A stretch of DNA of 64,000 nt from Owenia fusiformis (lineage: Eukaryota > Annelida > Polychaeta > Sabellida > Oweniidae), in NCBI GenBank assembly GCA_903813345.2, contig CAIIXF020000009.1, positions 36,575,759-36,639,758 of the forward strand. The letters are read 5' to 3'. Numbering within the stretch: position 1 is the first letter of the stretch; every line of letters begins with the position of its first letter. Position numbers and translations under genes: made by a program. The notes under the pieces were generated by a model. It made no database searches and had not been told where the DNA came from. It saw only the letters and a list, made by a program, of their open reading frames with translations. Of this stretch, positions 93 through 61,810 are shown one piece after another.

Positions 93-2422
93 GTGTATGT
101 GAATTGACTTGCCGATCAAAATTGATCATTCAAAATTCTTTTCCCACTACCGATTCTCAAAAAAGGCTAGATTTTTGTTCCATAATCATCAGTAGGCCAG
201 GGACCCATCATGTTCCTATAAGTTGCACAGTAGCTTTCCATCTGAAACTTCAACCTGTTTGTTCCAGGAATAAGAACAATTTGTCTGTAACCAGATTAAT
301 CTAATGGAGAAATTATTTTTTGTATTTCATTCCAATTAATCAGCATTTTAAAGCTATTTATACTGGCTCAACTGGTCCCCGTGCCCTGTAACTATTACAA
401 GTGTCAACCATATGGTGATTGATCAGCTAGTTAATCATATGGGTTGATAGGTTCTGTCTTGTTAAAGCAGTGCAAGAAATTAATACAAATGTTAAGTCAT
501 CTTGAACCCCTGCTTCTTAATGCGGCATTATTTTCCAGAATGATCTATTTGTCTGAGCATACAATCTACTTAGACATTGTTTTTACATTTCAAACTGGAT
601 TAATGAGTGCATTATATTTACGAGATTGCCTATTGGTTTATTGGTTCCATTATCTGACCTTTCTTATTTAAATGTATTTTTTATCTCTGATCTAGTTTCC
701 CAGCCTCCCAATTTCCTGCATTTGGATGATGTCTTGAGCCCTGTGCACAGGGGGTATGAGCTAAAAATTTAAAGGCCCTATATAAATATTATAATCGTAC
801 TAATTGTTATCAAAAACTTGCATGGGGCCTTTAAGTATTTTAGATACTTGATCCTCTTTCAGTCTAGTGGAGGAGATGCATGTTAGTTGTAAGCAAGTAA
901 ATTGATTTGATATTACTACATTCGAATCAAAGCAACCATTAAATCAATTGACTATTAATAATAATCACTGCCAGGGTTAACCCTGAATCCCGAATTAATG
1001 CACAAAATTACAAAAAAATAAATTCTTGCTCAAATAAAGACTGCTGCCTACTTTACATTAAAGAGGTAATTTTTAAACCATATGAATTTGTCCAATGCAA
1101 CTACAGTGTACTCTGATTTAAACAAATAAAGTGCAGTGCAGCCATGTCCAAGTTGATTAATTACGGAAAGGGGAGTTGGCAAACATTTCAGACACAAAAG
1201 AAAGATGAAATTAAACGTGACAAATAGCGTGAAATAGGACGTCAAGTCTGAGATAAATTTTTTTAGATATTCGAGATGATTTATATGAGTTGGCTTTTAA
1301 GTAATTTTTGTGGAAATGTGAGCTATTAATCACAAGAAAATAATGCTTTATGATAATGTCAACCTAATCTTTTGTAAAATGCAAAATCGGCAGATATGTA
1401 CTTTGGTATTTGCAAGGAATTGAACAAACAGAGACTAAGCTTCAAATTGAGAGCCTAAATTATGTGGTGATATCAAAGAAACATACTGTTTATTCAAGAA
1501 ATGAATAGAAATTGGATGTAGTTCCACTGATATGACAAGCAATTGAAGGGCAGCTTATGGTCTCTCCGCAGTAGCAGGATTAGCGTAGAGGTTTAAAGTG
1601 CGATCATGTAAGATTAGATACATCTTGAGTCAGGTGTCTCTATCTTAAGAACATTCTGGAAAAAGTCACCGCTCAGGTGTCCTTTTCTTAGAACAACATT
1701 TACAATTTATCTTTATCTCGCACAAAGGTCTCTTTCACTTGGTGATTTCATTTGCTTGCGGCTGAAATAAAGGAAGGATACTCTCCAGACAGCCATGATC
1801 TCAAATCAGACACAGAATAAATGACAAAATCGGCTTGGAATATATCAAACTCATTTGTCATGGAATCTCATATAATAAGCAATCCATTCTCACTATATAT
1901 ACAAGTATATGCTGCGTGGTACAGTATGTTTCTTACCTAGAATTATAATTTAGTATTCAGCTCATGGTTGGGAGAGAACTTGGAGTATTAAGAGACAATT
2001 CCTGATAAGACACAATATTTAGTTAGCATATGTAATTCCTGACAAAGTCAGTGCGATGTTTTGCCTGAAATATATGGCTTCAAGGTAGGTGTTGATATAA
2101 ATTAAATTGTATGTATATAGCCAAGTCTATTAGGTAAATTCACAAGAATTTTCGTGATTACAATATCCATGAGCTTTCTCATGGGCTTTCAAGAGAAAGC
2201 CGATGCAATATCCAATAATCAACAATGAAATTGGGGATATATGTAATGTTTAATTTTCACGTCATTGTAGAATGTGTGTTCAAAATCAAATTATCAGTTT
2301 TTAAATAAATTCTAAAAGTAAAGAACTATAATTTATGTACTTTAGTAGCAATTCTAATGAGATGGATGTTTTATTGAGGTGTCATGTTATATTGATGTGT
2401 CATGTCGTATTGATGTGTCATG
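93..2422. other. No gene recognised
   Basis: AT-rich DNA without a coding region I can support; the short open frames lack codon continuity or recognisable motifs. Near the right edge (about 2375-2422) a short motif around GATGTGTCATG is repeated three times and was the target of the transposon that follows. Confidence 0.5.
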
Positions 2423-2954: not shown

Positions 2955-4460
2955 TACTGACGTGCAAATTATACAAGAGTATACTTTCATGTTTTACATA
3001 ATACTTCTTTTATGTTTGACAGGATTATGCATTCTGGTTGACAGGATTATGCATTTTTTTGACAAGAGTATACTTTCATGTTTTACATAATACATCTTTA
3101 TGTTTGACAGGATTATGCATTCTGGTTGACAGGATTATGTCTTCATGTTTGACAAAAGTATACTTTCATGTTTTACATAATACATCTTTATGTTTGACAG
3201 GATTATGCATTCTGTTTGACAGGAGTATACTTTCATGTTTTACATAATACATCTTTATGTTTGACAGGATTATGCATTCTCTTTGACAGGATTATGTCTT
3301 CATGTTTGACAAAAGTATACTTTCATGTTTTACATAATACTTCTTTATGTTTGACAGGATTATGCATTCTGGTTGACAGGATTATGTCTTCATGTTTGAC
3401 AAAAGTATACTTTCATGTTTTACATAATACATCTTTATGTTTGACAGGATTATGCATTCTGTTTGACAGGAGTATACTTTCATGTTTTACATAATACATC
3501 TTTATGTTTGACAGGATTATGCATTCTCTTTGACAGGATTATGTCTTCATGTTTGACAAAAGTATACTTTCATGTTTTACATAATACTTCTTTATGTTTG
3601 ACAGGATTATGCATTCTGTTTGACAGGAGTATACTTTCATGTTTTACATAATACTTCTTTATGTTTGACAGGATTATCCATTCTGGTTGACAGGATTATG
3701 TGTTCTGTTTGACAAGAGTATACTTTCATATTTGATATAATACTTCTTTTATGTTTGACAGGATTATGCATTCTGTTTGACAGGATTATGCATTCTCTTT
3801 GACAGGAGTATACTTTCATGTTTTACATAATACTTCTTTATGTTTGACAGGATTATGCATTCTGGTTGACAGGATTATGCATTCTCTTTGACAAGAGTAT
3901 ACTTTCATGTTTTACATAATACTTCTTTTATGTTTGACAGGATTATGCATTCTGTTTGACAGGAGTATACTTTCGTGTTTTACATAATACTTCTTTTATG
4001 TTTGACAGGATTATGCATTTTGTTTGATAGGATTATGCATTCTGGTTGACAGGAGTATACATTCATGTTTTACATAATACTTCTTTTATGTTTGACAGGA
4101 TTATGCATTCTGTTTGATAGGAGTGTACTTTCATATAATACTTTTTTATGTTTGACAGGATTATGCATTCTGGTTGACAGGATTATACATTCTGTTTGAC
4201 AGGAGTATACTTTAAGGTTTTCATAATAAATATTTCTTATATGTTTGACAGGATTATGCATTCTGGTTGACAGGATTATACATTCTGTTTGACAGGAGTA
4301 TACTTTCATGTTTTACATAATAAATATTTCTTTTATGTTTGACAGGATTATGCATTCTGGTTGACAGGATTATACATTCTGTTTGACAGGAGTATACTTT
4401 CATGTTTTACATAATAAATACTTATTTTATGTTTGACAGGATTATGCCATCATGTTTGAC
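2955..4460. repeat. Complex minisatellite, TTTGACAGGATTATGCATTC core
   Basis: About 1.5 kb of tandem repeats with a core of about 21 bases (TTTGACAGGATTATGCATTC plus a few). Cores are grouped into longer units that alternate GACAGGATTATG, GACAAAAGTATAC and TTTTACATAATACTTC blocks. From 3038 to 3650 a higher-order unit of about 245 bp repeats almost perfectly, so open frames there encode the same peptide again and again. The array stops about 45 bp before the SOCS-box gene's first coding exon. I see no sign that it is translated. Confidence 0.9.
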
Positions 4461-4516
4461 TACATTATACTTAATTGTTTAAAATGATTATACCCTGCAT
4501 TTCCAGGTGTGAGAAG

Positions 4517-50700: not shown

Positions 50701-53700
50701 TAAATATTTTTGTTTCAAATGTGTTTTTTTATTCACAATTCTTAAGATTATATTGCCCAATGCCAGGTCCAACTCACTACTTCTAAGTCAGTAATTATTG
50801 ACAGCCCTAGACAGTTCAAAGGTTAAGGTATAAATCTTGTTATCCCACTGAACGAAGTCCGATAGGGATATAGAGAAACTGTCTGTCTGTTCATTAGTGT
50901 GTCAGGGCAATAACTCAAATACCAATTGATAGATTTGGTTCAACTTTTGTAAGTTTATGCCTTATGGGCATATGAGTCCAAGTCAATAAAACTTGATTCA
51001 TGCACATGCAAAAGTCAGTTCTGAATTTGTTCCTATGCCATGTATTTAAGAACATACATCTGGGCAGGTTTGGAGCAACCTATGACCAGTTCCCCCTTGT
51101 TGTTTAAAACCACAGCAGTTGGGTTCCTTAGGCCATCTTTGCCACTCAGCAGAGTTTTCTTATACTCCCCTTGAGGTGAGAGAAGCTGAATGTTGTGTTT
51201 CCAATAGTCAGCTATGATCACTTGTCCTACACTGTCCACACATATGCTTAGTGGACATAACAGAGTGTGGTCCCCTTTTCCAGTGTAGGTAGACAACAAG
51301 TCCCCCTTAGTGTTAATAAATTTAACAGACTCACCTACACAGTCCGCAATTAGTATATTATTTTCACTGGTTACTGTTATGCTGTATGATGATTTAAACA
51401 TATCAGTGGGGGTTGTATCTATCACTTTTCCTGAAGTAATATTGATACGGGATATGAATTTTTTCTCATCATCCGCTATAAGCAGCTCTTGTGGTTTGTT
51501 GAATGCTATCGCTATAGGTTTTTTGATTGTGAATAATTTTATGTCTCTGATTTTACTCCCTCTTGTGTCAAATAACCTCACGCCAAATTCATTTGCGGTA
51601 CTTGACACCGCAATTGTGTCTTTTGTAGAAGCCACACAGCTAACATTTTCTGGCACCAGTGTCTTCTTCATATTCCATTGATTATCAAACAGTAGGGCCT
51701 TTTCAATTTTCTCAATTTCATCTTTCACATTCATGACATAATGACCATTTGGCAGGCCTGCTATGGAATTGATGGAGCCAGCTGCATAACCAGCTATGGG
51801 TTTATTCTGGATGATCTTTGGGTCATCTAGAACATTTATCTTGAGTGATGTCGGCCTGTGTCTCCCAAGTCCAACTAACAAAGGTGGACTGTCTGATTCC
51901 TCTTCAGGAACAGCTACTGAATCTAGATAAAATACATAAAATCTTAAATAGACAGAAAAGAGCTATTCACATCATCGTTAAGGCACAAAACTATGAAAAA
52001 ATTCAACTTAAAAACAATTATTTACTACAGAAATGACTTAAAATCAACATGTGTAGGATTGTGCATGATTGTAATGGAGATCTTCACGTATTTCAGATAT
52101 TACAATCTTATATTTTGTAACATTGAATAGATATTAGTTCTATAACATGTTAATACTAACCTATGGCAGTTATATTCTTCTCTACTCTGTACTTGATCAT
52201 AAGTTGTTGCATATCTTCTTCAATCTGCTTTAACTTTGCTTGCATATTCTCAAGTTCATCACGATGAAGGGTTTCTAAATCCTCAGGAACAATGTCATTT
52301 GCTAATCTGAGCATCAAACTTGCTTGGCAAAGTGTCTCTTTACGAAGACGCTTTTCAATAGTTGTAGCTAAAGAGCAATAATCAACCCTCAGGACATCAA
52401 CAAATGAGTTGAATGCTTTAATAGAACGAGTTTCTAACCTGCTTAGGAAAACTCTGCATTTTTCGCTTGGAGTTTTCTCAGCACGTATTTCATCCATCAT
52501 TTGCCTTGTTATGACCTCATGTTGAACGCATGCATCTATAATGTAGCTGACATCCACATTGCGAACTATATCGTGATGGCATTTTTGTAAAGTGTCTCTA
52601 TGAACATGTGTTAGAAGATTTTCATCCTTTATGAATTTAACAGCCATCTTCTATAAATAAGATTAAGAATAAATATGAACATATGATTTTTCACTATACT
52701 GGCACAAACCATGGGTTTCAAGAGAGCCCATGCACAAACAAACAGTGTGCAATAGCTTTTCAACAATTCAACTTTTGGCAAAAAGTACAACATACCATAC
52801 CATACTGTCTGGCTGCTAATTTCAGCATTTGCATGGAAATTTGAGTGACAACTGTATTGTCTGATTTATGTTAATTTAAAAAGCACAAAGGGTAACACTA
52901 GATAGATTTAAATCTGCAAGAAAAAATTGAAGTAGACCTACTTTAATTTTCCGTTGACCTTCCAGTGAAAATGTTAGACGAAGAATTGTGCATGAGTGCC
53001 TGTTTTATGCATGCAAAATACATGTACACATGATTCTGTTTAACATATGAGATTATTTGGAATTATGAAGGGGTTGTATTAGAATGCAAAGTTTAATAAC
53101 TTGAATATAATACTTTTCAAACTTTGTTGAAAATGCATGTGAATCATTGGGAAAATACTTTTAGACCTAATCTAATCCAATTTCAAAAAATCTAATGGCC
53201 ATAATAGTTAATTTTGTAGTTCATACTTGCTTGACAGAATTCATTCTTGAGAGAATCCTTTTGTTTGTTTTATAACCTTATCTCTAAATGAAATAAATTT
53301 ATAACATCTAACATATTTATTAAATAAATGAAATATGATGTGTCAGACCAGTACCTGAATTATTAAATTTTAAACAGAGGATTAAGCAAATAAAGTTGAA
53401 CAGGTGTCATCAGAAAATTAGATTCTCAATTTCAGTTGAGAAAATATTTAAACATTTTTATACAAAGAGGGAGCATAATACTGAAAGCTGCTATTTTATT
53501 TTGAGTTCCATAAAAAAATATTATAATATTAATTAGTGACATCTATTTTTATTTATCTAGTGTTTTAACAGTCACATTTGTCTGAAGTTTGATGAATACC
53601 CTGGAAAGTTTGAAAGTTTTGTGTTCTAGCTGAAGGAGTGCATTCCAGGAAATTATGATTTATGTTCTAGCTTTTTTTATTTATAAAATTTCAATGACTG

Positions 53701-56700
53701 TGCAAATTACTGGCATAGCATTAATGTCTTTCATATACATATATTAAAATGAATGACATACTGTATGTGTATATATAGATCAAATTAAACACAATATTAA
53801 ACAGAAATTTTGTTTTGTGTTCTAGCTGGAGAAGTATCATGGAGGTGCGAGATAAAAATGGTTACACTCCCATCAAGAAACTTATTCAGAGATTACCTGA
53901 TGCAGCTCAGGTGAGAAACTATGATCAGACCTTTTTTGGCTCTCTTTAGGTCTTAACTCCAAAAGTGCTTCTTTAATTTGCTTGAAATTGTCTGGGTACG
54001 TTTACTTATATAATCAATAATGTCTACAATTTTCGGCAAAATATGTTTCAAAGATTCAAAATGGCCGCCACTTTTATTGTGGAGAAATCAGGGTTTATGC
54101 TCTTTTTTGGTCATATCTCCACAAGTATTCCATCATTTTGCTTGAAATTTTACAGGCACTGGACCTTAATTTATAGGTTATCAATAATTTATTGCCAAAA
54201 TGATCAATGGTTTATCACACAAATAACATTTTGCAAACATGTTCAATACAATCAAATTGATGCAATACTTATCACATGTACCATATTTCTATTTACTGTA
54301 AACTCCATAATGTTTCAGGTGTTGCTGGACAACTGTTTGGAAAAGAAATGCAGGAACAATAGCATCGACCAAGTAACTGTAAGTTCTAATCACTGACCTA
54401 TATATTGTATTCTATATACCTGAAGGACAATATAATGAACAATACAGTTTGAATAAAAATGTTCTCAAAATAGCATTATGTTACTTTACTACATGTATTA
54501 AAGATTGATTTCAAATTCTTAATTTCCAAAAGCTTGTTTACATGTACATTTACCCAGAATCCACATCTTCGTTCACTCTGCTCTCATCAGTCTGAATTCA
54601 GTGTTGACCAAGCGTGTGAAGATGAAGAAAGAAATCATTGATTGATGAAGAGATCGGAGCAGAGAGAAGGGGGAGGTTATGTTCAGATGTTTAATGATTT
54701 TATTCTAACTTCGTGTTTTACCAGATGACGTTAGACTTCCAGTACATAGACCCAGGTCCAGATGACATTTGCTGTAAGAATAAAAGATACTGTGCTCTCT
54801 ATGTAAGTAATGATATATACCCCACTCTGTCTGTTACAAGAGGTTTTTCTTTTATTGCATAATACAGAACTTGATATTATCGATCACTTGACTGGTGTCA
54901 ATAAGATTATTGGTAATGCATTGCATTATTGGCAATGCATTGCATTATTGGTTATGAATTGCATTATTGGTTATGATTTGCACAACATTATACCATGGTT
55001 TACTTACATTTTGTTAGAGTCTCTTCTTACACATACATTTACTGCATAACATTATACCATGGTTTACTTGCATTTTGTTAGAGTCTCTTCTTACACATGC
55101 ATTTACTGCATAACATTATACCATGGTTTACTTGCATTTTGTTAGAGTCTCTTCTTACACATGCATTTACTGCATAACATTATACCATGGTTTACTTGCA
55201 TTTTGTTAGAGTCTCTTCTTACACATGCATTTACTGCATAACATTATACCATGGTTAACTTGCATTTTGTTAGAGTCTCTTCTTACACATGCATTAACTG
55301 CATAACATTATACCATGGTTTACTTGCATTTTGTTAGAGTCTCTTCTTACACATGCATTTCCTGAGTACGAGGGTTGTCCCATAAGTCTTGAAATTTTTA
55401 TTCTTATTCATAGAATATTTGAGATACAATGATAAAAATTTCACATTTTCTAACGTAGATATATTTCTTTCATCTCTGTAAGTTTCATAGCATAATAAGA
55501 TCATTTGGTAATGTTACAGATGATTAAAAATGGAATGTTGGGGGTACCCGGGGCAGAAAACAGGATAAAAATACAAATATGACGTAAAAATTAAGGATTT
55601 GGGAACCCCTGGCTCAGCTCAACATGTTGCCTTTTCTGCTCCTCTGTCAGAATATGTGGAATGAATCTAGGGGCTACCTTTGACATCCAAAGGTCTTTCT
55701 TCATCACTCTGTGAGCAGTACTCTTACTAATATCAAAGTCTAAGCGATCTTCCTACACTGAGTAGTTCTCATTTCAGCCCTTATAGGCCTACTCTCTGCA
55801 ATATGTGATATGAGATTGTCACTGGATTTTGGCCTTCCACTTCTAGGAGCATCTTCCAGGCTGGTATCTCCAGTTTTTAACTCCTTCTATCACCTCCATA
55901 TTGTAGGTGCACTTGGAGTTTACTGTCTATGTACTTTTTCCATGGCTGTTCTTGTTTGTGTAGGTGTATGCCTTAAGGAGGCGTGGTATTGCACAACTGC
56001 ACGCAAAGATTTAACATCTGGTGACAAAATCCCTGCCATTTTGATTTTCAAAATGCTGTGGCTCTGTACCAAAATTGAGCAATTGTGCTAGTTTATTATG
56101 ACATCACTGAGGTATTTCATAAGATTTTACCAAGAATACAGTGTTTTTGTCAATCTTGACAGGTGATTCACAATTTAAGATACATACCATCCTTTAAAAT
56201 CCTTAATACTCCCACGGCTCCATTTTACATTTTTACTATATTTCATTACTGCCCCACCCCCCGACTCCCCCGGTTACCATAGCAACCATAATAATTACTC
56301 AAGTTCATAATTTTGTTATGAAACTATCACATGTTGAAGATAATTGATTGATCTTGATATATACTAATTTTCAGCCAAATTCATCAAAATCTTTTTGAAT
56401 TAGAATAAAAATTTCAAGACTTATGGGACAACCCTCGTATTTAATTGTTTTATTGCAGACAATGGTGGAGTACCAGAGAGGGGAAATGCTGTCTCATCCT
56501 CTATGTCAGAACCTCATGTCTAAGAAATGGTATATTGTCATTCCTGAAAAGTTGCTTTTTCTTACCTTATGGCCTAGTCACATAGCCCGGCCGATGAGGT
56601 TACGATGAGCCAGCGATGCAATTTTCACCGAACTCGGCCGAACACCGGCCGGACATCCGTGGCGTTTGTTGCTTAAAACCGCATCGGTGGTAGCTCGGTG

Positions 56701-59700: not shown

Positions 59701-59993
59701 GAATGACAGATAATAAATGAGGATTTGAATTAGGGTGTTTGAATCGAATAATTGAATTAGAGTTTGAATGTTAATTTTAAGTGCTTGCAGATGAGATAAA
59801 CTTTGGGGAAGTGTTAGCCAAAACTGACCCCCATAGGCTGTACCAATGTTATTGTATTTTCAGGATAGATATGGTTGGCATCTATGTGATTATGTTCATA
59901 GCTGTGTTCAAAAGCTTACTGAAGGTGGTGGTAATATTCCTGATGTTCCTCATGGCATTCACCTCTGCCTTCTACATTCTACTAGCCAGACAG
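41707..59993 (+). CDS. TRPA-type ankyrin cation channel, 5' part (to S5)
   Basis: Twenty-four exons join in phase: 41707-41731, 43397-43463, 43621-44350, 44695-44854, 45181-45356, 45980-46087, 46356-46464, 46888-46985, 47169-47216, 47356-47480, 47780-47906, 48334-48450, 48569-48655, 48911-49155, 49309-49420, 49716-49885, 53826-53910, 54319-54378, 54725-54802, 56459-56529, 57819-58011, 58691-58813, 58987-59153, 59864-59993. That encodes 1137 residues. A long Pro/Ser/Lys-rich N-terminus (about 1-270) is followed by about 17 ankyrin repeats, the usual TRPA1 number, then S1 (FGMLCFILNLLLYVVFLVLL) and segments to S5 (FLMFLMAFTSAFYILLARQ), which matches TRPA1. The S5-S6 pore is not found before 64000. 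Introns 16 and 24 hold antisense NHL genes. The first exon (MAKVTNET) is chosen from its donor and phase and is the least certain. Confidence 0.9.
48838..48886 (+). pseudogene. Partial duplicate of channel exon 14
   Basis: The first 45 bases of exon 14 (ACTAGACAAAGGAGCTAGGC and surroundings), together with a GTAG|GCAGT acceptor, are repeated 73 bp upstream of the real exon. The copy then diverges and lacks a donor. Using its acceptor would insert the duplicate plus intron sequence, so it is probably a decoy or dead exon. Confidence 0.75.
50838..50995 (+). mobile_element. Fragment of the (CGTC)n repeat family
   Basis: TTATCCCACTGAACGAAGTC...GGGATATAGAG, then CTGTCTGTCTG and GGGCAATAACTCAAATACC, matching the left ends of 9943 and 20801. 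The right part is missing. It is in intron 16 of the channel, just past the 3' end of the nested CARD-NHL gene. Confidence 0.6.
51033..52647 (-). CDS. CARD-coiled-coil-NHL protein, nested antisense in the channel gene
   Basis: Two exons: 52647-52161 and 51922-51033 (donor G|GTTAGT, acceptor TCTAG, phase 1), giving 458 residues. Residues about 8-95 form a CARD: the sequence DVSYIIDACVQHEVITRQMM, then EKCRVFLSRL and AFNSFVDVLR, lines up along the helices of the Apaf-1 CARD. Residues about 120-160 are a charged coiled coil (ELENMQAKLKQIEEDMQQL). Exon 2 holds about six NHL-like propeller blades (for example ICVDSVGQVIIADYWKHNIQ). No RING or B-box is seen, unlike TRIM-NHL proteins. CARDs mediate homotypic assembly in apoptosis and innate immunity; the ligand or partner here is unknown. 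It lies wholly within intron 16 of the channel gene. An acceptor-like TATAG just before the ATG suggests a non-coding 5' exon. Confidence 0.85.
54981..55360. repeat. 64-bp tandem repeat, about 6 copies
   Basis: Unit contains ACATTATACCATGGTTTACT, TGCATTTTGTTAGAGTCTCT and TCTTACACATGCA, nearly identical between copies. Just upstream (54903-54980) is a shorter repeat of GCATTGCATTATTGG. It is in a channel intron and does not overlap a splice site. Confidence 0.9.
55369..56437 (-). mobile_element. Mariner transposon, decayed
   Basis: A 1069-bp element flanked by TA, with terminal inverted repeats of about 38 bp starting CGAGGGTTGTCCCATAAGTC. On the minus strand, fragments of a mariner transposase remain: LEDAPRSGRPKS (near 55860) and KVAPRFIPHILTEEQKRQH (near 55650), the DNA-binding half. 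Stops and frameshifts interrupt the frame, and the catalytic D,D34D half is missing. It is inserted 21 bp before channel exon 20. Confidence 0.85.
55620..55900 (-). pseudogene. Mariner transposase remnant
   Basis: The readable minus-strand pieces run in order: the GRPKS linker, a segment ending in a TAG stop, then MKKDLWMSKVAPRFIPHILT. They correspond to the second helix-turn-helix and the WVPHxL-like motif of mariner transposases (here FIPHIL). The frame is broken at least once and the rest of the protein is deleted. Confidence 0.7.
56570..57243. mobile_element. GC-rich foldback transposon
   Basis: About 675 bp. Ends GGCCTAGTCACATAGCCCGG and the exact inverted partner CCGGGCTATGTGACTAGGCC. 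The inside is GC-rich and full of CCGGCCG / CGGCCGG / ACCGAGCTC words in both orientations, in sharp contrast to the AT-rich surroundings. Open frames across it arise from the base composition. The termini resemble Harbinger-type elements. It is in the intron between channel exons 20 and 21. Confidence 0.8.
57355..57404. repeat. 50-bp palindromic mariner-end remnant
   Basis: CAGGGTGACCCAAAATG and its inverse CATTTTGGGTCACCCTG are separated by only about 15 bases, with TA on the left. It is a minimal foldback of a mariner-like element. Confidence 0.75.
58550..58675. repeat. Short GTCACC/GGTGACAT repeat
   Basis: A 125-bp relative of the family at 34698 (starts TGTCACCGCCATAAGTATTG, ends GGTGACATTTTACATGTTAA). 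It ends 16 bp before channel exon 22. Confidence 0.55.
59169..59342. mobile_element. Miniature hAT-like element
   Basis: CAGGGGTTTCATTAGCAGCA at the left and the inverted CTTGTGAAACCCCTG at the right, 174 bp, with CCAGTTGTTTTCA / CCGGTTGT words inside. It is a shrunken relative of 28657-29499. It starts 16 bp after channel exon 23. Confidence 0.65.
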
Positions 59994-61626
59994 GTAATTC
60001 ACCTCTGCCTTCTACATTCTACTAGCTAGACAGGTAATTCACCTCTGCCTTCTACATTCTACAAGCCAGACAGGTAATTCACATCTGCCTCTTACATTCT
60101 ACTAGCCAGACAGGTAATTCACCTCTGCCTTCTACATTCTACTAGCCAGACAGGTAATTCACCTCTGCCTTCTACATTCTACTAGAGAGACAGGTAATTC
60201 ACATCTGCCTTCTACAATCTACTAGCTAGACAGGTAATTCACCTCTGCCTTCTACATTCTACTAGCCAGACAGGTAATTCACCTCTGCCTTCTACAATCT
60301 ACTAGCTAGACAGGTAATTCACCTCTGCCTTCTACAATCTACTAGCTAGACAGGTAATTCACCTCTGCCTTCTACATTCTACTAGCCAGACAGGTAATTC
60401 ACCTCTGCCTTCTACATTCTTCTAGCCAGACAGGTAATTCACCTCTGCCTTCTACATTCTACTAACCAGACAGGTAATTCACCTCTGCCTTCTACATTCT
60501 ACTAGCCAGACAGGTAATTGATCTCTGCCTTCTACATTCTTCTAGCCAGACAGGTAATTCACCTCTGCCTTCTACATTCTACTAACCAGACAGGTAATTC
60601 ACCTCTGCCTTCTACATTCTACCAGCCAGACAGGTAATTCACCTCTGCCTTCTACATTCTACTAGTGACAGGTAATTCACCTCTGCCATCTACATTCTAC
60701 CAGCCAGACAGGTAATTCACCTCTGCCTTCTACATTCTACTAGCCAGACAGGTAATTCACATCTGCCTTCTATATTCTACCAGCCAGACAGGTAATTCAC
60801 CTCTGCCTTCTACATTCTACTAGCCAGACAGGTAATTCACCTCTGCCTTCTACATTCTACTAGCCATAGAGGTAATTCACCTCTGCCTTCTACATTCTAC
60901 TAGCCAGACAGGTAATTCACCTCTGCCTTCTACATTCTACTAGCCAAACAGGTAATTCACCTCTGCCTTCTACATTCTACTAGCCAGACAGGTAATTCAC
61001 CTCTGCCTTCTACATTCTACTATTCAGACAGGTAATTCACCTCAGCCTTCTACATTCTGCTAGCCAGACAGGTAATTCACCTCTGCCTTCTACATTCTAC
61101 TATTCAGACAGGTAATTCACCTCAGCCTTCTACATTCTACTAGCCAGACAGGTAATTCACCTCTGCCTTCTACATTCTACTAGCCAGACAGGTAATTCAC
61201 CTCTGCCTTCTACATTCTACTATTCAGACAGGTAATTCACCTCAGCCTTCTACATTCTACTAGCCAGACAGGTAATTCACCTCTGCCTTCTACATTCTAC
61301 TATTCAGACAGGTAATTCACCTCAGCCTTCTACATTCTACTAGCCAGACAGGTAATTCACATCTGCCTTCTATATTCTACCAGCCAGACAGGTAATTCAC
61401 CTCTGCCTTCTACATTCTACTATTCAGACAGGTAATTCACCTCAGCCTTCTACATTCTACTAGCCAGACAGGTAATTCACTTCTGCCTTCTTCATTCTAC
61501 TAGCCAGACAGGTAATTCACCTCTGCCTTCTACATTCTACTAGCCAGACAGGTAATTCACCTCTGCCTTCTACATTCTACTAGGGACAGGTGATTCACCT
61601 CTGCCTTCTCCATTCTACTAGCCAGA
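59960..61626 (+). repeat. 40-bp minisatellite made of an exon-intron junction
   Basis: About 41 tandem copies of a 40-bp unit (ACCTCTGCCTTCTACATTCT then ACTAGCCAGACAGGTAATTC). The first unit is the last 34 bases of channel exon 24 (coding TSAFYILLARQ of S5) plus the first bases of its intron. Nearly every copy keeps the 5' splice site CAG|GTAATT. From 61021 on, the variant TATTCAGACAGG...CTCAGCC returns at 80- and 120-bp intervals, a higher-order period of 200 bp. The unit is not a multiple of three. Confidence 0.95.
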
Positions 61627-61810
61627 CATTAACTGAAATAAGTAAACCTGTTTTTCATTGCTATCTTATTGTATTTAGCGCGATTGTGATTTTTTGTAAA
61701 ACATATTTTATAAGAAAATAGAGCATTGACCTTTGTTATCTCAGAAATCACACTTGATGATATCATATACACAATAATCATAGGACAAAGATATGTGCAT
61801 GACTATATTT

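Follow-up and report, generated by a model that had tools for sequence, protein, structure and literature searches.

The window analysed here is a stretch of 64,000 nucleotides from the annelid Owenia fusiformis (assembly GCA_903813345.2, contig CAIIXF020000009.1, positions 36,575,759 to 36,639,758 of the forward strand), and window coordinates above 64,000 denote sites outside it. It contains an exon of a TRPA1-like channel gene whose end lies, together with its 5′ splice site, inside a long minisatellite. A slash marks the exon-intron boundary wherever a splice site is spelled out. The features on which the analysis rests are the following.

59864–59993, plus strand: exon of a TRPA1-like channel (S4-S5 linker and S5), ending in ...AFTSAFYILLARQ, from phmmer, the splice model and paralogues.
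59957–61628, plus strand: minisatellite with a 40-bp unit in 41.9 copies, covering the exon end and the 5′ splice site, from TRF and the unit listing.
59994–59999, plus strand: first donor, GTAATT, probably the one used, judging from its position in paralogues and as the sole stop-free choice of 41.
60027–60029, plus strand: in-frame TAG in unit 2, within the product of every later donor, from translation of 41 donor choices.
60992–61471, plus strand: distal part of the array (units 27–38) with a partly dimeric, 80-bp higher-order pattern of largely alternating G32T,C33T and T13A variants.
61629–61800, plus strand: flank after the main array, with a diverged copy behind a second array (from window coordinate 68559 on), by alignment and by blastn (92% over 754 aligned columns including array).

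The identity of the host gene was examined by comparing the exon at 59864–59993 with PDB sequences. All nine sequences returned by phmmer up to E=1 were TRPA1, the best being chain 7ykr_A (E=5.7e-06), and the Pfam Ion_trans match of the exon was weak, below the family cut-off. By alignment with TRPA1, we take the encoded helices to be the S4-S5 linker and S5. The splice model gives this exon the acceptor TTTTCAG/G and the donor CAG/GTAATT. Upstream of it, ankyrin-like exons were recognized by eye inside the window. With the pore exon of a paralogue as query, the pore exon with S6 was located outside the window at 69576–69749, and a further exon follows near 77153. Both of these exons have open reading frames, and the gene therefore appears intact in this part. 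Only a portion of it was recovered by a simple exon-chain program, which gave 14 segments; three of them (56766, 74283 and 76972) looked false and were excluded. The remaining 11 were used for splice-site scoring, and the addition by eye of an exon at 54725–54802 gave 12 for the scan for junction copies. On the minus strand, two long open frames that appear by eye to be NHL-repeat and CARD-like (51033–52650) are nested in the channel gene region, and open frames at 55591–55886 resemble, also by eye, pieces of a mariner-type transposase.

TRF reported the main array with a period of 40 and 93% matches, along with one extra weak row of period 21 inside it. When the array is cut at AG/GT, each unit consists of 37 exon bases followed by GTA, and the unit consensus matches the exon stretch preceding the first donor at 37/37 positions, which makes the array an amplified exon-intron junction. 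There are 41 such junctions, from 59992 to 61588, and every one (41/41) reads AG/GT. Neighboring junctions are 40 bp apart in 38 of 40 cases and 38 bp apart in the other two. The fuller junction sequence is CAG/GTAATT in 39 of the 41, GAG/GTAATT in one and CAG/GTGATT in the last, and 10 of the 40 units equal the consensus. A preliminary description of this DNA had proposed that a 40-bp unit spanning the exon end and its 5′ splice site had become a minisatellite, had counted about 41 copies by eye, and had placed about 40 extra CAG/GTAATT donors after the true one. TRF and the unit listing agree on the unit, the count by eye is matched by 41 AG/GT junctions and 41.9 TRF copies, and the 40 later junctions are all AG/GT, the full CAG/GTAATT being present at 39 of the 41. 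This confirms a tandemly amplified splice junction in a TRPA1-like channel gene.

Comparison with paralogues bears on which donor came first. Three paralogous exons in this genome (L002, L003 and L004), which are all that the search returned besides the array-bearing one, stop at the codon where that exon stops, likewise with GT, and carry no array (3/3). Based upon this, we regard the first donor as ancestral and the others as copies added to it, in keeping with the earlier proposal that the first donor is the true one. Translation of all 41 donor choices showed that only donor 1 leaves the frame open; each of the 40 later choices contains the TAG at 60027–60029, which arises by a C-to-T change at unit position 34 in unit 2, a change that units 7, 9 and 10 share. 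The prediction that the second donor shifts the frame into a TAG, and that later ones meet one too, is borne out by this count, and a working channel would require donor 1 or an equivalent path. The truncated product had also been described as lacking S5. The loss of frame from later donors holds, but the rest of that description needs correction: the translated exon aligns with TRPA1 over the S4-S5 linker and S5 and is followed by the pore exon, so that a truncated product would keep S5 and lose the pore helix, the filter and S6. Local donor scores were 3.1 for donor 1 and 38 others, and 2.5 and 3.3 for the remaining two. Scores this nearly alike mean that local sequence does not explain why donor 1 should win, and that the choice rests on something else. 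The simplest basis, we infer, is proximity: of all the donors, donor 1 is closest to the acceptor, and it yields a 130-base exon ending where the paralogues end.

The 40-bp unit is found at a second place in the same intron. A search with the exon end plus two units gave at least 25 matches, all on contig C9 and in two clusters; among the matches listed, at least 18 were in the main array and at least seven were about 6.4 kb downstream. The downstream cluster belongs to a second array at window coordinates 67988–68558, outside the window, with 14.3 copies. Directly behind it lies a copy of the main array's flank (754 aligned columns, including array sequence, at 92%). Because the assembly of tandem repeats is difficult, one could imagine that the copy number is inflated or that the second array is the first one placed again in error. 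Such an artefact is extremely improbable, however, as the two arrays differ in their variants, their flanks show visible differences, and both lie within one 38.9-Mb contig. Two short arrays of a 16-bp unit (65278–65356 and 66608–66700), about 1.3 kb apart and in opposite orientation, lie between the main and the second array, and these are perhaps the ends of a DNA transposon.

The S5 exon is not the only exon of this gene affected. The donor of the pore exon, after S6, is also inside an array, covered by TRF rows between 69727 and 70387 with a main period of 69. This array holds seven ATG/GTATGT sites, including the true donor, and three ATGATATGT sites, and translation donor by donor showed that its six extra donors each lead to a stop. 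The paralogous pore exons L010, L011 and L012 have GT at the same codon (3/3). Two consecutive exons of one gene have their donors inside different minisatellites, while no TRF array was found at the donor of the exon after the pore exon. On the acceptor side, the site at 53826 of the same gene is matched 196 bp upstream by a second copy, which shares an exact core of 17 bases. Two direct repeats of 2155 bp (71162–73316 and 74962–77116), 100% identical, lie in the intron that follows the pore exon; they may be a mobile element of recent origin with long terminal repeats, or else a duplication of recent date.

We also looked for comparable structures at other genes. The clearest was an acceptor-side array at an ABC-transporter exon (L048, 1460–1513, reverse complement), where three copies of AG followed by AATGTGTCA lie 21 and 20 bp apart; the array ends with the acceptor of the exon itself, and there is a fourth copy far upstream. 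Its neighbour paralogue L049 has degenerate acceptor-side copies at 1266–1559 (reverse complement) and an older duplication that includes the acceptor (130 columns at 76%). Together with the pore-exon donor, the ABC-transporter copies indicate that junction duplication is not confined to the S5 exon. L049 also contains a 10-bp unit in two copies. A survey covered 30 loci of PF00520 (at least 138 matches listed; 150 of 262 candidates scored) and 24 of PF00005 (at least 25 matches listed; 19 of 194 candidates scored). Donor arrays were found at 0/30 and 0/24 of these loci, respectively, a weak sample, since long open exons make up many of the PF00520 loci, there is overlap among several of the PF00005 loci, and the central open frame of each locus was tested in place of curated exons. 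With 0/54 other loci bearing a donor array, the phenomenon may be rare in the genome. A looser scan of the same 54 loci, in which 492 GT and 488 AG sites were checked for copies matching at 19 or more of 24 bases, gave five matches: one GT in L018, two AG in L048 that are distinct from the acceptor of its exon, and two AG in L049, of which one is the acceptor. The L018 match is weak and A+T-rich and was not counted.

Whether arrays favour splice junctions was asked of the TRPA1-like gene region, where a copy matching in 20 or more of 24 bases was sought within 600 bp of 1760 sampled positions. A downstream copy was present at 166 positions (9.4%) and an upstream copy at 169. At the junctions themselves, copies within 600 bp were found at 2/12 donors and 1/12 acceptors. 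Four array stretches hold 181 of the 1760 positions, and outside them copies in either direction were found at 18 of 1579. Since about a tenth of the positions lie in arrays, 2/12 donors is no clear excess; enrichment at junctions is unsupported, and an array-rich gene region of this kind counts against a special mechanism. Several other repeats were considered as junction arrays and rejected. The 64-bp array at 54979–55364 is intronic, 177 bp past the donor of the exon ending at 54802, and the one at 2973–4460 stops before an apparent exon near 4507 whose start is, by eye, not repeated. The L038 array lies inside an open frame, arrays close to frames in L021, L033 and L045 were judged by eye not to cross the boundary, and the L068 repeat is located after a donor. 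Some of these repeats are of note in themselves: that at 2973–4460 is a minisatellite of acceptor-like units, TTTGACAG/GATTATGC, and that in L038 (924–1302, reverse complement) is an 84-bp repeat of 4.5 copies in an open ion-channel frame, apparently a coding minisatellite. Small repeats also occur inside frames in L030 (1699–1740) and L033 (1549–1572).

Structures of the same kind have been described in amphioxus. There, minisatellites termed mirages cross exon-intron boundaries in Adh3, globins (including BflGb6 and BflGb9), troponin C and PGBD5, and regular splicing is reported to continue, according to the accessible parts of the two papers (PMC3087553, PMC3902484). The TRPA1-like array is likewise a tandem repeat across an exon-intron boundary, and the position of that boundary is common to 3/3 paralogues. 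In amphioxus, many units, not all, carry splice signals, at donors or at acceptors, as far as the accessible text goes; all 41 junctions here are AG/GT. Copy numbers differ, with about 41 in the TRPA1-like array compared to 6 and 3 repeat units in the two BflGb6 haplotypes given in the accessible part of PMC3087553. Several genes per genome are affected in amphioxus, by the same partial sources; in Owenia fusiformis, an annelid, we found two donors and one two-copy acceptor of the TRPA1-like gene and the acceptor of an ABC exon, with traces in its paralogue. The TRPA1-like gene is further set apart from the amphioxus mirages by two consecutive donors in arrays and by the recurrence of its unit as another array in the intron. 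The content of the genome also points away from amphioxus. Among the matches listed for Ion_trans, at least 138, 135 are on contigs C1–C12 and three on C295 and C494, which suggests about 12 chromosomes, compared to 19 or 20 in amphioxus; PF16915, the haemoglobin linker family of annelids, scores above its cut-off at three places on C6 and in none of 14 control genomes, all of them prokaryotes. A search for COX1 had no match, nor did one for mollusc haemocyanin, which also gave none in the controls and is therefore no sign of absence. The kind is known from amphioxus, and the location seems new; a narrow literature search found no work joining mirages, splice sites and an annelid.

Taken together, the array is probably a passive, junction-spanning minisatellite of the amphioxus mirage kind, the extra donors of which are normally ignored. 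Under this explanation, a stretch made up of the exon's final 37 bases plus the GTA that opens the intron would have been tandemly duplicated and would then have grown to about 41 copies by slippage or unequal exchange. The largely alternating two-unit pattern in the distal array fits growth by either route. Later, part of the array and the flank on its right were presumably copied to a site about 6.4 kb farther down the intron, the main array being the likely source. Donor 1, nearest the acceptor, would set the 130-base exon, and the remaining array would leave as intron. If a later donor were used now and then, the transcript would carry an early stop and would be expected to undergo decay.

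Variation across the units has a bearing on how passive the array is. In the main array (38 units of 40 bp), the CAG/GTAATT columns make up 9 of the 40 columns and hold one of the 24 variant types (p=0.018), a scarcity that rests on one array of related units and is not repeated in the second array, where the donor columns hold one of six variant types (p=0.59; 11 units). Low variation at these columns could hint at constraint on the copies and counts against a purely passive array; the signal is not strong. The same scarcity favours the idea that the array is a regulated source of isoforms, in which later donors would be used in some transcripts to give a pore-less fragment or mRNA decay, with array length as a dial. 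The repeat donors are also adequate by score, 3.1 being within the range of 1.1–5.5 for 11 modelled donors of this gene. A human minisatellite, reportedly that of the gene 6-16 (IFI6/G1P3), provides a parallel in an unrelated gene. By the title cited in PMC2572611, it provides multiple splice donor sites, as the TRPA1-like array does; any use of several donors there is known from that title, whereas the later donors here are candidate sites. Against a regulated source, the reported amphioxus cases splice normally, insofar as the accessible parts of PMC3087553 and PMC3902484 describe them. In addition, the early TAG in unit 2 is common to all later donors, and almost the same product would therefore be encoded by the use of any of them. 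Regulated production of isoforms from the array therefore seems unlikely.

A recursive splice site, or ratchet point, has an acceptor directly followed by a donor and is used in stepwise intron removal. If each unit were such a joint acceptor and donor, the long intron could be removed stepwise, the array would erase itself, and the mRNA would be correct whichever unit was hit. This would explain both the tolerance of an array at an essential splice position and the low variation of the CAG/GTAATT columns. The units do have a pyrimidine-rich stretch and an AG immediately before the donor, but the tract is interrupted by ACTAGCCAGA. Most units score as fair acceptors. The commonest acceptor score among them is about 2.2, compared to 1.6–4.7 for 11 modelled acceptors and a 95th percentile of 2.17 for 4186 AG sites; these scores come from a home-made matrix with hand-set frequencies, however, and the units range from −1.1 to 3.1. 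Furthermore, the 69-bp array reads ATG/GTATGT, without AG before the donor, and so cannot act as a ratchet. A narrow literature search found nothing on recursive splicing with tandem repeat and ratchet. On balance, we consider ratcheting through the units very unlikely.

A passive mirage at this site would still be of interest for the origin of introns. In the Rogers model, as outlined in the accessible part of PMC3087553, tandem duplication of an AGGT stretch produces new potential donor/acceptor pairs and thereby intron gain, and intron gain by such duplication is the topic of PMC4974935, as its accessible part indicates. An AG/GT stretch has been duplicated in the TRPA1-like array as well; the model concerns the gain of an intron, whereas an old intron was already present here. 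Through its duplicated AG/GT stretches, the array would be raw material for intron gain. It also offers a natural test of choice among identical splice sites, with 41 nearly equal donors and array-free paralogues in one genome. Because the donors are nearly equal, position, exon size or transcription order must decide the choice. Lastly, with an annelid as host, mirages would be no quirk of amphioxus.
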